Source: Lysobacterales bacterium
GTDB taxonomy: Bacteria; Pseudomonadota; Gammaproteobacteria; Xanthomonadales; SZUA-5
DNA: 64,000 nt
NCBI GenBank assembly: GCA_022841325.1
Contig: JALHRS010000027.1
Coordinates: forward strand, 1 to 64,000
Direction: 5' to 3'
The notes under the pieces are model-generated. The model worked only from the letters and a program-made list of their open reading frames with translations, did no database searches and had not been told where the DNA came from. The first letter of the stretch is position 1. Every line of letters starts with the position of its first letter. The translations under genes were made by a program, and so were the position numbers. Below, in pieces: positions 44,262-50,468 of this stretch.

Positions 44262-45020
44262 TCAGCCGGCAGCGGCCAGCGTGGTGCTGGCCCACAACGA
44301 CAGGCCTTCGAGCACCAGATTCGGCAGGTGCCGATGCGGCATGCTCAGGTGCGGAGCCAGCGCCGGCATCGAGCCGCCGGCGAGCAGCAGTTCGACGTCG
44401 GCGCCCACGCCCAGCGCCCCGTGCCGGTAGGCGTGGCCGATCAGCGCTGCGCATGCCAGGCAGGCACCGCTCCATACGGCATCGTCGGTGTTGCGTGCGA
44501 ATTCACGCACGCGCACCCGTTCGCCAGTGCGGATACCGGCGGTGCCGCGGTGCAGTGCATCGCGCATCAACACCGGGCTGGGCACGATCAAGCCGCCCAG
44601 GTGCTGACCACCGTCGTCGACCATGTCCAGGGTCAGGGCGGTACCGGCATCGGCCACCAGAAAGGCCCCCGAAACCTGGGTGCGGGCGCCGGCCATGGCC
44701 AGAAAACGGTCGCTGCCCAGACTGGCGGGTTGGTCGTAGGCGCTGCGGATGCCGAGGGCTTCCTTGGGCGAGACGAAGACCTGGGTCTCCAGATCCAGGC
44801 GCTCAGCGACGGCCCGAACCAATGCCGGACTCAGGCTCAGGGCGGTGGACGACAGCCAGACCGAGCCGGCGCCTGCTGCTGCAGCCCATAGCGGCGCCAG
44901 ATCGCCCAATCCACCGGGCTCATGGGCGACAGGCGCGCCGAGTTGCAGCTGGCTGCCATCGGCCAACGCCCATTTCAGGCGGCTGTTCCCCAGATCCAGC
45001 AGCAGTCTCGGGCTTGTCAT
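44262..45020 (-). CDS. coaX: Type III pantothenate kinase
   Basis: 252 residues. It phosphorylates pantothenate, the first step of CoA synthesis, and belongs to the ASKHA fold. Motifs are LLLDLGNSRLKWAL (phosphate 1), LGSDRFLAMAGA, VADAGTALTLDMVD and GGLIVPSPVLM. It follows birA by 15 bases, a common birA-coaX pair. Type III enzymes are not inhibited by CoA and need a monovalent cation. Confidence 0.95.
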   Translation of the reverse strand: MTSPRLLLDLGNSRLKWALADGSQLQLGAPVAHEPGGLGDLAPLWAAAAGAGSVWLSSTALSLSPALVRAVAERLDLETQVFVSPKEALGIRSAYDQPASLGSDRFLAMAGARTQVSGAFLVADAGTALTLDMVDDGGQHLGGLIVPSPVLMRDALHRGTAGIRTGERVRVREFARNTDDAVWSGACLACAALIGHAYRHGALGVGADVELLLAGGSMPALAPHLSMPHRHLPNLVLEGLSLWASTTLAAAG

Positions 45021-45035
45021 GAGTTACACCTCGAT

Positions 45036-45815
45036 TCAAAAGGGGCGGACGCTGACTTCGCCAGCCGACAGCAGTCGCAGCTTGCCGTCGATGTCCACAC
45101 GCAGTCTACCGAGCTCATCGACCCCGAGGGCATGACCGCGCTCAACGCCGGCGCTGCCACGCCACCAGAGCTGTTGCCCGGACAGAGCATCGGCGCTTTG
45201 CCATTCGTCGGCGAAGGCGCCGAAGCCGGCAGCTTCAAAGCTGCACAGCACGCCCTGGAGTTCGTGCAGCAGGCGGCCGATGAGCAGATTGCGTGAGGGC
45301 AGTGGCGACAGCCAGTGCGAGAGTTCGGTCCAGGGCTGGTCCAGATCCTGGGCAGCGCTTTCCGGTAGCCGTAGATTGAGCCCGATGCCGATCAATAGCT
45401 GCGCACCGGGGGGCTGCGCGAGCACATCGATCAGCACGCCGGCCAGCTTGCGCTGGTCCACCCAGACATCGTTGGGCCATTTCAGTCGGGCATCGACCTG
45501 CCAGTGCGCCAGCGTGCGGCGGATTGCCAGACCCACCGCCAGCGACAGGCCGGCCAGCTGCGCCGGTGTTCGCGCCGTCGGCCAGTTCGCAGTCAGATAG
45601 ACCGCCGCGCCGGGCGGCGACAGCCAGCGGCGGCCATGCTGGCCGCGTCCGGCGCTCTGGGTATCGGCGACGACCGCAGAAGGAACTGCCTGGCCCAGCA
45701 GCAGGCGCTGGCGGGCGCGATCCTGGGTCGAGTCCAGCTGCGCGTGGATTTCGAGTTCGAAGGCGCGGCTGTGCCGATAAATGGCCTCGGCGTTGAGCGG
45801 CTCCAGGGTCTGCAT
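45036..45815 (-). CDS. birA: Biotin--[acetyl-CoA-carboxylase] ligase, ligase domain only
   Basis: 259 residues. It activates biotin with ATP and transfers it to AccB. The biotin/ATP loop is SAGRGQHGRRWLSPPG, followed by LKWPNDVWVDQRKLAGVLI and the C-terminal SH3-like domain (GHALGVDELGRLRVDIDGKL). The N-terminal winged helix found in the E. coli repressor is missing, so it should not regulate biotin genes directly. It is 23 bases downstream of plsY. Confidence 0.94.
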   Translation of the reverse strand: MQTLEPLNAEAIYRHSRAFELEIHAQLDSTQDRARQRLLLGQAVPSAVVADTQSAGRGQHGRRWLSPPGAAVYLTANWPTARTPAQLAGLSLAVGLAIRRTLAHWQVDARLKWPNDVWVDQRKLAGVLIDVLAQPPGAQLLIGIGLNLRLPESAAQDLDQPWTELSHWLSPLPSRNLLIGRLLHELQGVLCSFEAAGFGAFADEWQSADALSGQQLWWRGSAGVERGHALGVDELGRLRVDIDGKLRLLSAGEVSVRPF

Positions 45816-45838: not shown

Positions 45839-46501
45839 TCAAGGGCCGCGACGGCCGAACAGCAGCGCCAGCAGACGCACCCTCTCGAAGCGGTGCTCGT
45901 TGCCGGCGCGCAGGCGCGCCAGGTTGCTGCGATGGGTGTAGACCAGCAGGGCGGCGGCGGCCACGGCCATGGACGCCAGGCCAGCGCTCAGCGGTGACTG
46001 CAGCAGGTACAGGGCGATCGGGAAGCACAGGCCCGCCAGGACTGTGCTCAAGCCGACATAGCCTGTGCTGATCAGCACCAGCAACCAGACTGCCAGCATC
46101 GCCAGCGCGACCATCGGGAACATCCACAGCACCACGCCGATCAGGGTGCCGGCGCCCTTGCCGCCGCGGAAACCGTGGTAGAGCGGGTAGCAGTGGCCGA
46201 CCGCGGCGGCCAGTCCGCAGGCGAGCTGGGTTTCGGTCAGGCCCAGCGGCGAGTCGACGATCGCCAGCGGTGCAATCAGCGCCGCCGCCAGCACGCCCTT
46301 GCCGAAATCGATCAGCGCCGTGCCCAGTGCAAACAGCTTGCCCTGGGTACGCAGCGCATTGGTGGCGCCGGCATTGCCGCTGCCCACGTTGCGGATATCG
46401 ACACCGCGCAGACGCCCGAGCAGCAGGCTGCCGACCACGCTGCCCAGCAGATAGCTGGCCAGCAGCTTGGCCAGCAGCACGATCACGGCTCCGCCACCCA
46501 T
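45839..46501 (-). CDS. plsY: Acyl-phosphate:glycerol-3-phosphate acyltransferase
   Basis: 220 residues, integral membrane, 5 or more helices. It transfers the acyl group from acyl-phosphate to glycerol 3-phosphate, the first step of phospholipid synthesis. The three conserved loops are present: GSGNAGATNALRT, GHCYPLYHGFRGGKGAGT and THRSNLARLRAGNEH. The ATG at 46501 overlaps the upstream gene by 19 bases; a GTG at 46486 would give a 4-base GTGA overlap and is an equally good start. The upstream gene encodes a putative fatty-acid kinase, i.e. a supplier of its substrate. Confidence 0.93.
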   Translation of the reverse strand: MGGGAVIVLLAKLLASYLLGSVVGSLLLGRLRGVDIRNVGSGNAGATNALRTQGKLFALGTALIDFGKGVLAAALIAPLAIVDSPLGLTETQLACGLAAAVGHCYPLYHGFRGGKGAGTLIGVVLWMFPMVALAMLAVWLLVLISTGYVGLSTVLAGLCFPIALYLLQSPLSAGLASMAVAAAALLVYTHRSNLARLRAGNEHRFERVRLLALLFGRRGP

Positions 46502-48324
46502 TGCAGACCGACCACCAGAGAGCCGGGCCCGGCGTGCACGCCGATGGCGGGCCCGGTTTCCACCACCCAGATCTTGCCCAGCGTGGGAATGGTGTGGCGC
46601 ATGACCGCCGCCAGATTGGCGGCATCGTCGGCGGCATCGCAATGGCCGACCACGGCTCTGCAGCTGCGATGTGCAGGCAGGCGACGGGCGATCACCGCCG
46701 CGTAGCGCTCGATCAGGCGTTGGCGCCCGACCAGGGCCGAGAACGGTCGCACCAGCCCGTCCTTGTCGGCGATCAGCACGGTCAGGCCGAACCAGCGGGC
46801 CAGGCGCTCGGCGATAGCCGGCATGCGGCCACCCTGCACGCCGTAGCGCAGATCCCGGATCAGGGCGAAAGTGCGGGTGCGGGTCATGGCATCGCGGGCG
46901 GCGGCCAGGACGGCATCGGCGTCGCCACCGGCCTGGGCGCATTCCGCCGCCACCATCGTGATCAGGCCCTGACCGGCCGAGGCATTGCGGGTGTCGAGCA
47001 CGCTGATGCGCTCGCGCCCGCTCTCCCTGGCGGCGGTCTGCGCGGCCTGGAAGGTGCCGGACAGCCGGCTCGACAGCTCGACCGACACCAGCTGCTCGCA
47101 ATGTGCCAGGACCAGATCGTAGGCCCGGCGGAAATCGCCGGGTGGCGGTTGCGAGGTCTGCGGCGGCTTCAGGTTCTGGCGCAGACGGGCGTACAGCTCA
47201 CGCGGCGACAGGGTGATGCGATCGAGGTAGTCATCGTCACCAAAATTCACTCGAACCGGGACGATGGTGATGCCCAGGCGTTCGGCCTCGGTCGCCGGCA
47301 CGTCGCCAGCGGAATCGGTGACGATGCGGACGCGCTGGAACGGCGCAGCCCGCATCCGGGCCTGTGCCTGCATGTCGTCGGCCTTGCGCTGGGTGACGGT
47401 GCCCAGGCCCGAGAGCTGCTCGAACAGCTGATTGGGGCGATCGATATGGGCATGCACACGCACGCGCTCGCGGCCGCCGGCCACCACCAGAGAATCCAGC
47501 GCCAGCTGCGTCAGCGCACCGCGCACCCGGGTCAGGTCCAGATCGCTGCCGGTGAGCACGCACTCGGTGCAATAGCGGTACTGACTGGCGCTTTCGACCG
47601 CCTCCAGGTGCACCTCATCATGGGCGCAGCCATCGTGTACGCGCGCATCCGGGGCCACGCGCAGGGCACCGCGACCACGCTCGATGAAATCCTGGACGCC
47701 CTCCAGAAAGTCGACGAAGCCGGCGGCGCCGGCATCGACCACTCCCGCAGCGCGCAGCACGGGCAACTGGTTGGGTGTATTCGCCAAAGATTGGCGAGCT
47801 CGCTCAAGTGCTCGCTTGAACAACAGTGTCAGATCAGCCACGCCCAGTTCGACCTGACGCTTCAGTTCATGGGCGAAATCGGTGATGACGCTGAGCATGG
47901 TGCCCTCGCGCGGGTCCGCCAGGCAGGCACGGGCGGCCAGTGCCGCGCTGCTGGCGGCGCCGGCCAGATCTGCCGCTCCCGCATCTCGGCAGCGCCCCAG
48001 GCCATCGGCAAGTCCTTGAAAGAACTGGGCCAGAATTGCGCCCGAATTGCCGCGTGCACCGTCGATGGCTTCACGGGCCACGCCGCCCAGCACGGTGCTG
48101 ACGTCAGCACCGCGCAGGCGGCGCACGGTCTTCAGCACCGCGATCATGGTGAAGGCGAGATTGGTGCCGGTATCGCCGTCTGGCACCGGAAACACATTGA
48201 TGCGGTTGAGATCGTCGCGCTTGGACAGCACGCGACCCGCGCCGGCGATCAGCGCGCCCTTGAGGCGGGCGCCACTGAGCCGATCCAGCGCTTTGGAGGT
48301 GGGCCATTCGATGATTGCTTGCAT
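46483..48324 (-). CDS. DhaL-DegV fusion, putative one-chain fatty-acid kinase (FakA-FakB)
   Basis: 613 residues. Residues 1-~205 are a DhaL/DAK2 nucleotide-binding domain (VFPVPDGDTGTNL at 44-56; DGARGNSGAILAQFF near 88-102). Residues 240-315 match the middle domain of FakA (YCTECVLTG, DSLVVAGG, VRVHAHIDRP). Residues ~320-613 are a DegV fatty-acid-binding domain with VTDSAGDVP (325), TSQP (390-393) and LSSRLSGT (417). In Gram-positive bacteria FakA and FakB are separate proteins that convert fatty acid to acyl-phosphate. The 3' end overlaps plsY. A TATGCT box sits 9 bases before the ATG at 48324. Confidence 0.85.
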   Translation of the reverse strand: MQAIIEWPTSKALDRLSGARLKGALIAGAGRVLSKRDDLNRINVFPVPDGDTGTNLAFTMIAVLKTVRRLRGADVSTVLGGVAREAIDGARGNSGAILAQFFQGLADGLGRCRDAGAADLAGAASSAALAARACLADPREGTMLSVITDFAHELKRQVELGVADLTLLFKRALERARQSLANTPNQLPVLRAAGVVDAGAAGFVDFLEGVQDFIERGRGALRVAPDARVHDGCAHDEVHLEAVESASQYRYCTECVLTGSDLDLTRVRGALTQLALDSLVVAGGRERVRVHAHIDRPNQLFEQLSGLGTVTQRKADDMQAQARMRAAPFQRVRIVTDSAGDVPATEAERLGITIVPVRVNFGDDDYLDRITLSPRELYARLRQNLKPPQTSQPPPGDFRRAYDLVLAHCEQLVSVELSSRLSGTFQAAQTAARESGRERISVLDTRNASAGQGLITMVAAECAQAGGDADAVLAAARDAMTRTRTFALIRDLRYGVQGGRMPAIAERLARWFGLTVLIADKDGLVRPFSALVGRQRLIERYAAVIARRLPAHRSCRAVVGHCDAADDAANLAAVMRHTIPTLGKIWVVETGPAIGVHAGPGSLVVGLQWVAEP

Positions 48325-49164: not shown

Positions 49165-49713
49165 ATGGCGACCACCAAGGCAAAGACCAAGGCAGCCAAG
49201 CCCAGTGCTGCTGCTGTCAAGGCCGCAAAATCGAAACAGAACAAGAGCTTGCCCGAATGGGTGAGTGCAGCTGATCAGGCCTTGCCCAAGGGTTATGTGC
49301 CCAAGCTCGAATTGCCGGCGGGCTATCGCCCGAGCAGTTCCGAGGAGTACATGTCCCCGGAGCATCTGGAGTACTTCCGGCGCAAGCTGTCGATCTGGCG
49401 GCATGAACTGATCGAAGAGTCACAGCAGACCATCGAAAATCTGCGTGACGAAGTCCGCGATGTCGGTGACGAGGCGGAGCGGGCAACGCGTGAAACCGAG
49501 AACTCGCTGGAACTGCGCACGCGGGATCGCTATCGCAAGCTGATCGGCAAGATCGACAAGGCGATCAAGCGCATTGATGACGGCCGCTACGGTTATTGCG
49601 AAGAAACCGATGAGGAAATCGGCCTGGACCGGCTCGAAGCTCGTCCGATCGCCACCCTGTGTCTGGATGCCCAGGAACGCTGGGAACATCGCCAGCGGCA
49701 GATGGGCGACTGA
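49165..49713 (+). CDS. dksA: RNA polymerase-binding transcription factor DksA
   Basis: 182 residues. It works with ppGpp on the RNA polymerase secondary channel. A Lys/Ala-rich extension (1-~28) precedes the globular part, the coiled coil (DEAERATRETENSLELRTRDRYRKL) and the zinc-finger fold. Two of the four Cys are replaced: CEET in place of CXXC, and CLDA in place of CXXC. The coiled-coil tip reads DEAERA, so the second tip Asp is Glu. This Cys-poor type resembles DksA forms that work without zinc. AGGAGAG precedes the ATG. Confidence 0.93.
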   Translation: MATTKAKTKAAKPSAAAVKAAKSKQNKSLPEWVSAADQALPKGYVPKLELPAGYRPSSSEEYMSPEHLEYFRRKLSIWRHELIEESQQTIENLRDEVRDVGDEAERATRETENSLELRTRDRYRKLIGKIDKAIKRIDDGRYGYCEETDEEIGLDRLEARPIATLCLDAQERWEHRQRQMGD

Positions 49714-49814: not shown

Positions 49815-50453
49815 TCACTCCAGCGGCAGCAGCTTCAGCATCGCAGCGAGACGTTCCCGTCTGACTGCAAGTTCCGTCGAATCGTCGGCCAGCGGCAACG
49901 CCGCCTTGCGTGCCCATGCGCGCATCTTCAGGCGCTGTTCCGGGCCGAGGAAATAGGCGCTGACGCCGAAGGCCTCGGCCAGCAGGGCCAGCGCGACTGC
50001 AGCCAGATCTTCCAGATCGAGCGCATCGTATCCGCGTTTGAGCTTGGCCAGGCGCTCGCCGCGTGTCTGCGTGGACTGCAGCGCATAGCGGCTGCCGCCG
50101 AATCGTCCGAACAAGCCACCCGACAGACGATGCACGATCCCCAGACGCTCGAAGCCGTCGAGCAGGTCGCTGCGCACCGACCACATGCGTCGTCGCAACC
50201 GGGCCACGGCCTTTTCTGGCGCCAGTCTGGCATCGCCCAGCGCGTGAGCGGCCTCGGTCAGCAATCGATGCGACTGCGGTAGCGGATCGACCAGCCGAAA
50301 ATCGCCGCTTTCCAGCACCACCGCGCCGCGCGCGATCAGGTCCACCAGCAAGGCCCGCGCCAGTGCATCGCGACTGGTCGCATGCTTGCCATCGCCAACC
50401 AGGCCGCCGACGGGATCGATGGTCAGGATCAGCAGATCTTCGGCCAGCAGCAT
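49815..50453 (-). CDS. GPP34 (GOLPH3-like) family protein
   Basis: 212 residues. It has the family layout: N-terminal LLAEDLLILTIDPVGGLV, the ARALLVDLIARGAVVL helix, DALDLEDLAAVALALLAEA in the C-terminal half. Eukaryotic GOLPH3/Vps74 binds PI4P at the Golgi; bacterial members are mostly uncharacterised and best known from actinobacteria. There is no signal peptide. GTG 50459 is an alternative start. It is next to sufE on the same strand but has no evident link with Fe-S assembly. Confidence 0.8.
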   Translation of the reverse strand: MLLAEDLLILTIDPVGGLVGDGKHATSRDALARALLVDLIARGAVVLESGDFRLVDPLPQSHRLLTEAAHALGDARLAPEKAVARLRRRMWSVRSDLLDGFERLGIVHRLSGGLFGRFGGSRYALQSTQTRGERLAKLKRGYDALDLEDLAAVALALLAEAFGVSAYFLGPEQRLKMRAWARKAALPLADDSTELAVRRERLAAMLKLLPLE

Positions 50454-50468
50454 TGGCACGGGAGGGAC

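Follow-up and report, generated by a model that had tools for sequence, protein, structure and literature searches.

What would a fatty-acid kinase in a single polypeptide be doing in a Gram-negative bacterium, where its gene overlaps the one for PlsY, the acyltransferase that uses acyl-phosphate? The available text of one source treats FakAB as a Gram-positive strategy (PMC10146087). The window analysed here is a stretch of 64,000 nucleotides from a Lysobacterales genome (365 contigs, 6 per cent contamination), and the coordinates that the initial annotation gave for the fusion are correct; the strand, which it left unstated, is minus (Table 1). We consider it likely that this one-chain fatty-acid kinase is a dedicated, and possibly the only, source of acyl-phosphate for a divergent PlsY that works beside PlsB.

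Table 1. Features of the fusion locus, in window positions
Feature	Position	Strand	Remarks
Single-chain fatty-acid kinase (FakA_N + FakA_M + FakB/DegV)	46483..48324	minus	613 aa
Dak2 / FakA_N nucleotide-binding domain	47692..48189	minus	residues 46-211; Pfam 124 bits
FakA-like_M middle domain	47356..47583	minus	residues 248-323; Pfam 53 bits
FakB/DegV fatty-acid-binding domain	46507..47331	minus	residues 332-606; Pfam 204.7 bits (cut-off 27)
plsY	45839..46486	minus	GTG start; alternative in-frame ATG at 46501
birA-type biotin-protein ligase	45036..45815	minus	next gene after plsY
Type III pantothenate kinase (coaX)	44262..45020	minus	after birA
dksA	49165-49713	opposite to fusion	pointing away

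The Dak2, FakA-like_M and DegV domains of the 613-aa protein all score above their curated Pfam cut-offs, and both the VTDSAGD and TSQP motifs (the latter at residues 390-393) are in its sequence, which bears out the earlier claim that DhaL, the FakA middle domain and a FakB-type DegV domain lie in one chain. The DegV family model TIGR00762 is likewise exceeded (220.8 bits, cut-off 99.7). The NCBIfam cut-offs missed by the fusion are those for FakA_VfrB (141.4 of 975 bits), YloV (258.3 of 396.1 bits), the FakB1 equivalog NF038249 (88.8 of 350 bits) and the DhaL family dha_L_ycgS (21.6 of 138.3 bits). A Pfam profile search found no match to FakA-like_C (PF13684) in the protein, and because FakA_C is missing the fusion is not just a FakA joined to a FakB: the predicted DegV domain occupies the position where FakA_C normally sits.

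The neighbouring gene product is PlsY (PF02660, 153 bits; TIGR00023, 143.0 bits against a cut-off of 137.2), and the reported overlap stands, since the TGA of the fusion (46485-46483) shares 4 bp with the GTG of plsY (46486-46484); from the alternative ATG the overlap becomes 19 bp. Such an arrangement argues for co-expression of the two genes and, taken with the fusion itself, would fit direct channelling of acyl-phosphate. The birA gene downstream probably belongs to the same operon and forms no part of the kinase.

Across 26 aligned fusions, with identities to the protein of the window of 29-70%, the residues N43, D49, D51, C252, H291 and H293 are invariant throughout, as are T390, S422, T424, R500 and H597. 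N43, D49 and D51 align with Staphylococcus aureus FakA N32, D38 and D40 (N43 lying just ahead of the Pfam Dak2 stretch), C252, H291 and H293 with the FakA triad C240, H282 and H284, and R500, in a GGR sequence, with FakB1 R173; T390 is the TSQP-type threonine. The S. aureus FakA/FakB1 counterparts of seven invariant residues are tied to catalysis in the available text of a study that also assigns kinase activity to FakA_N and the middle domain (PMC9136124). The catalytic residues on which the initial annotation depended are therefore present, including both aspartates (D49 and D51) in all 26 proteins.

An AlphaFold model of the fusion (pLDDT 85.8, pTM 0.77) gives a similar picture. Residues 12-223 superpose on FakA_N (8vip; Z 35.0, rmsd 1.1 over 209 residues), and residues 330-610 superpose on DegV (2dt8; Z 34.0, rmsd 2.2 over 278 residues) and on FakB2 (7w7h_E; Z 32.8, rmsd 2.7 over 276 residues), the DegV half matching fatty-acid-loaded DegV/FakB structures along its full length. 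The kept residues and the fold matches together describe a FakA minus its docking domain, whose position is taken by a full FakB domain. Dihydroxyacetone kinase has the Dak2/DhaL fold in common with the fusion (2btd, Z 25.8), and the match of the DegV half to DhaK is weaker (1uoe, Z 18.4); in contrast to DhaK/DhaL, the fusion carries Asn43, as FakA does, rather than a third Asp, and has a FakA middle domain besides. The missed DhaL cut-off and the FakA-type Asn at position 43 rule out a dihydroxyacetone kinase.

It might be supposed that the DegV domain provides only FakA_C-like docking and that a separate FakB is needed, given that FakA_C resembles FakB in structure and binds it, according to the accessible part of PMC9136124, and that the divergent fusions L059 and L061 each give a weak second hit to FakA-like_C in this region. 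That reading is extremely improbable: the window protein scores 205 bits for DegV with no FakA-like_C match, keeps the FakB residues T390 and R500, and matches fatty-acid-binding DegV structures over the full length of the domain; its genome contains no second DegV match, nor does any other of the 37 fusion genomes described below. A second Dak2 match occurs among those 37 in G033 alone.

The pairing with plsY is not peculiar to the genome of the window. Among 61 genomes (its own and 60 relatives, up to order level) the one-chain fusion is present in 37, and all 37 have plsY, which lies adjacent on the same strand in 34; these counts rule out both an artefact of assembly or annotation and a linkage confined to one genome. 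In G033 the fusion and plsY both lie near contig ends, and a contig break probably accounts for their non-adjacency; G018 and G019 carry the two genes at separate places. Just 3 of the 24 fusion-free genomes have plsY: G005 (86% complete), where it lies at its contig end, G026, and G014, which also has no PlsX match. The spacing between fusion and plsY is negative in 26 of the 34 adjacent pairs and exactly -4 in 19, these lengths being approximate because gene starts came from a codon-usage caller, which in the window chose the ATG (-19) and not the GTG (-4).

The co-occurrence of plsY with the fusion has a Fisher p of 1.7e-13 with relatedness ignored, and since the genomes are related such values overstate the association. 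A PlsB tree was used as a stand-in for the species tree ('quick' method, 58 rows; G001, G005, G026 and G045, with no PlsB above cut-off, are left out). On it, fusion and plsY agree in 3.7 of 4 independent pairs and are never opposed (p 0.125), a coupling that is suggestive but below significance, four pairs being too few. One clade of 31 rows has no PlsX at all, and within it fusion and plsY are either both present or both absent. As a separate observation, 11 fusion-free genomes (G009, G020, with two DegV, G028, G029, G037, G043, G044, G049, G050, G055 and G056) have a free-standing DegV with no Dak2 match and no plsY, and thus something FakB-like without a recognisable kinase.

The usual source of acyl-phosphate for PlsY is PlsX, which current papers regard as its partner. 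The genome of the window has one DegV, one Dak2, one PlsY and two PlsB matches and none to PlsX (PF02504), a profile that matches 8 of 14 control genomes, Escherichia coli and Bacillus subtilis included, and 332 of 369 class-level genomes. At the normal position of plsX, rpmF directly adjoins fabH across a gap of 53 bp; the gap, measured in 35 of the 60 rpmF-bearing genomes, runs from -7 to 233 bp in 24 PlsX-negative genomes as against 1018-1217 bp in 11 PlsX-positive ones. The bypass of acyl-ACP that the initial annotation predicted is better supported than it could know, because PlsX is absent from this genome.

PF02504 is unmatched in 23 of the 37 fusion genomes, the present one included, and the other 14 keep PlsX, so that the fusion does not need its loss. 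Nor does plsY follow PlsX: it occurs in 15 of 23 PlsX-positive and 25 of 38 PlsX-negative genomes (Fisher p 1.0), and the two never agree in 5 independent pairs on the PlsB tree. Set beside the 37/37 and 3/24 for genomes with and without the fusion, these counts indicate that plsY tracks the fusion, not PlsX. Among titled loci, a fusion with a nearby downstream plsY and no PlsX match was found in Dyella ginsengisoli LA-4, Dyella lutea, Arenimonas fontis, Arenimonas maotaiensis, Lysobacter daejeonensis and a Silanimonas MAG (L042). PlsX was present in 3 of the 16 genomes reached through such loci (L039, Natronospirales; L041, Silanimonas; L045, Thioalkalivibrio), the two Silanimonas MAGs differing in this respect, with contamination possible in L041.

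PlsB is found in 58 of the 61 genomes. The second PlsB of the window's own genome is very divergent (G000:C44:19302-21602, L179; 826 bits against 925, on an end branch of 1.09) and is possibly contamination of the genome bin. Eight genomes have PlsX and PlsB without a PlsY match (G016, G024, G034, G041, G046, G047, G053 and G059).

The plsY genes of the order form one branch (support 77) apart from 18 canonical PlsYs, 17 of which are joined at support 97. The branch includes both of the non-adjacent plsY genes; the plsY of G014 sits on a very long branch of its own, whose placement is unsure. The tree leaves out seven loci that yielded no usable row (L012, L019, L025, L030, L039, L045 and L197) and contains near-duplicate loci from the same genomes. 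This divergence, along with the near-ubiquity of PlsB, could be taken to mean that PlsY in PlsX-less genomes is an inactive relic and its linkage non-physiological. We regard this as very unlikely, for the plsY of the window is intact and in frame, the printed PlsYs of its relatives keep the GSGNxGxTN and GGKG stretches, which we take to be PlsY motifs, and open plsY frames persist through most families of the order, the lineages without the fusion mostly having no plsY at all. Xanthomonadales, which is Lysobacterales in NCBI naming and has Dyella and Arenimonas as members, has been said, in the text available from two sources, to have only PlsB/PlsC or no PlsY (PMC11633183, PMC13400652). Groups f2 and most of f12 lack plsY and agree with that claim, whereas the remaining groups disagree, and it is contradicted by the named Dyella, Lysobacter and Arenimonas genomes.

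Outside the order the partnership fades. In an even class-level sample of 369 genomes, the query has a match in 18, of which 12 carry one-frame full-length fusions (G000, G019, G065, G076, G088, G118, G159, G225, G239, G302, G346 and G424). Only in G000, the genome of the window, and G065 is plsY adjacent; the fusions of G239 and G302 lie near contig ends, with the plsY of G302 on another contig, and plsY was not found in G159 (67% complete). The survey of linkage that the initial annotation called for is thus positive within the order (34 of 37 fusion genomes) and mostly negative elsewhere in the class, where linkage is rare, and a universal association of the fusion with plsY is ruled out. 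G122, G146 and G269 hold fragments of the fusion, and a homologue in G355 (G355:C48:115003-116850, L060) has two in-frame stops, TAG and TAA, and is perhaps a decaying copy. The matches in Chloroflexota (L049, L051) are not longer fusions but split fakA-fakB neighbours, as is that of the gammaproteobacterium G128 (L063).

The fusions of the wider class sit mostly away from plsY, mostly in genomes with PlsX, and some have other neighbours: L045, L054, L057 and L058 lie directly behind the type II secretion genes gspA-gspB, gspA (the one of the two tested there) is near the fusion of L039, and L061 follows a glycerol-3-phosphate-oxidase-like gene. That the gsp-adjacent fusions have to do with secreted lipases is no more than a guess. 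Such settings lend something to the idea that the fusion is a fatty-acid kinase whose product serves mainly signalling, other envelope acylation or fatty-acid detoxification, the overlap with plsY being an inherited operon accident. We think this unlikely, since plsY accompanies the fusion in all 37 genomes that carry it and occurs in just 3 of the 24 that do not, both genes are jointly absent in several lineages of the PlsB tree, and we know of no other source of acyl-phosphate for a PlsY retained without PlsX. Because fusions outside the order are mostly unlinked to plsY, the fusion is wider than its partnership with that gene; it is perhaps also older.

A dedicated supply of acyl-phosphate to PlsY remains our preferred reading, and its conditional parts are the enzyme activity, the substrate, the use of the product by this PlsY and any channelling. 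The DegV half would hold a free fatty acid taken from the membrane, the DhaL half would supply ATP and phosphorylate it to acyl-phosphate, and the Cys-His-His triad of the middle domain together with the DegV arginine would complete the active site. PlsY from the overlapping gene could then acylate glycerol-3-phosphate with the acyl-phosphate, and free fatty acids, whether external or from lipid turnover, would reach phospholipid in the first acylation step, bypassing acyl-ACP, while PlsB would handle the acyl chains of de novo synthesis. With PlsX deleted, the fusion is the sole source of acyl-phosphate that we could identify for PlsY, which would imply no passage through acyl-ACP; and with no PlsX to exchange acyl-phosphate with acyl-ACP, salvage should be one-way and confined to the first acylation. 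That a PlsY can draw on such a kinase is suggested by the E. coli enzyme, which in vitro accepts acyl-phosphate that B. subtilis FakA/B has produced, according to the available text of PMC13400652.

A broader version, to which we would give about even chances, is that in most Lysobacterales lineages PlsY has been rewired and PlsX deleted, leaving the kinase as sole supplier, with a PlsB lane fed by acyl-ACP or acyl-CoA insulated from a Fak-PlsY lane fed by free fatty acid, and with the fused FakB replacing FakA_C. The kinase would manage without FakA_C because the fused FakB domain stands in its place, and in a putative dimer the DegV domains of two subunits may meet in the way that FakA_C meets FakB when the enzyme is split.

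With FakA/FakB of S. aureus, B. subtilis and streptococci the fusion shares a DhaL-type domain, the Cys-His-His middle domain, the FakB/DegV fold and equivalent catalytic residues. It differs in being one chain with FakA_C replaced in position by a FakB domain, in having one fixed FakB where the split system has exchangeable ones, and in a Gram-negative host that has PlsB but no PlsX. The split fakA-fakB neighbours have the same domains in adjacent genes, in that order, but their FakAs keep FakA-like_C (213-236 bits in three proteins) beside a separate FakB. As in the PlsX/PlsY pathway, PlsY is an acyl-phosphate-dependent glycerol-3-phosphate acyltransferase; here, however, PlsX is absent, and in place of a transacylase that works on acyl-ACP the presumed supplier, encoded next to plsY, is a kinase for free fatty acid.

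No description of a FakA-FakB fusion or of Fak-PlsY linkage in Gram-negatives was found among the titles and abstract openings listed in searches of open-licence literature. All the domains are known; new within what was searched are a Gram-negative single chain lacking FakA_C, the order-wide pairing of this chain with a PlsY that is divergent, and the loss of PlsX. The data point to a Gram-negative lane of acyl-phosphate salvage independent of acyl-ACP and to a natural PlsY expected to rely solely on a kinase; they also matter for the question of whether Lysobacterales could bypass inhibitors of fatty-acid synthesis. A one-chain Fak also offers a compact route to a closed active site, which is still lacking as far as the available text of PMC9136124 goes. 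Elsewhere in the window, a Pfam match identifies a GPP34 (Golgi phosphoprotein 3-like) protein at 49818-50459 on the minus strand of this Gram-negative genome.
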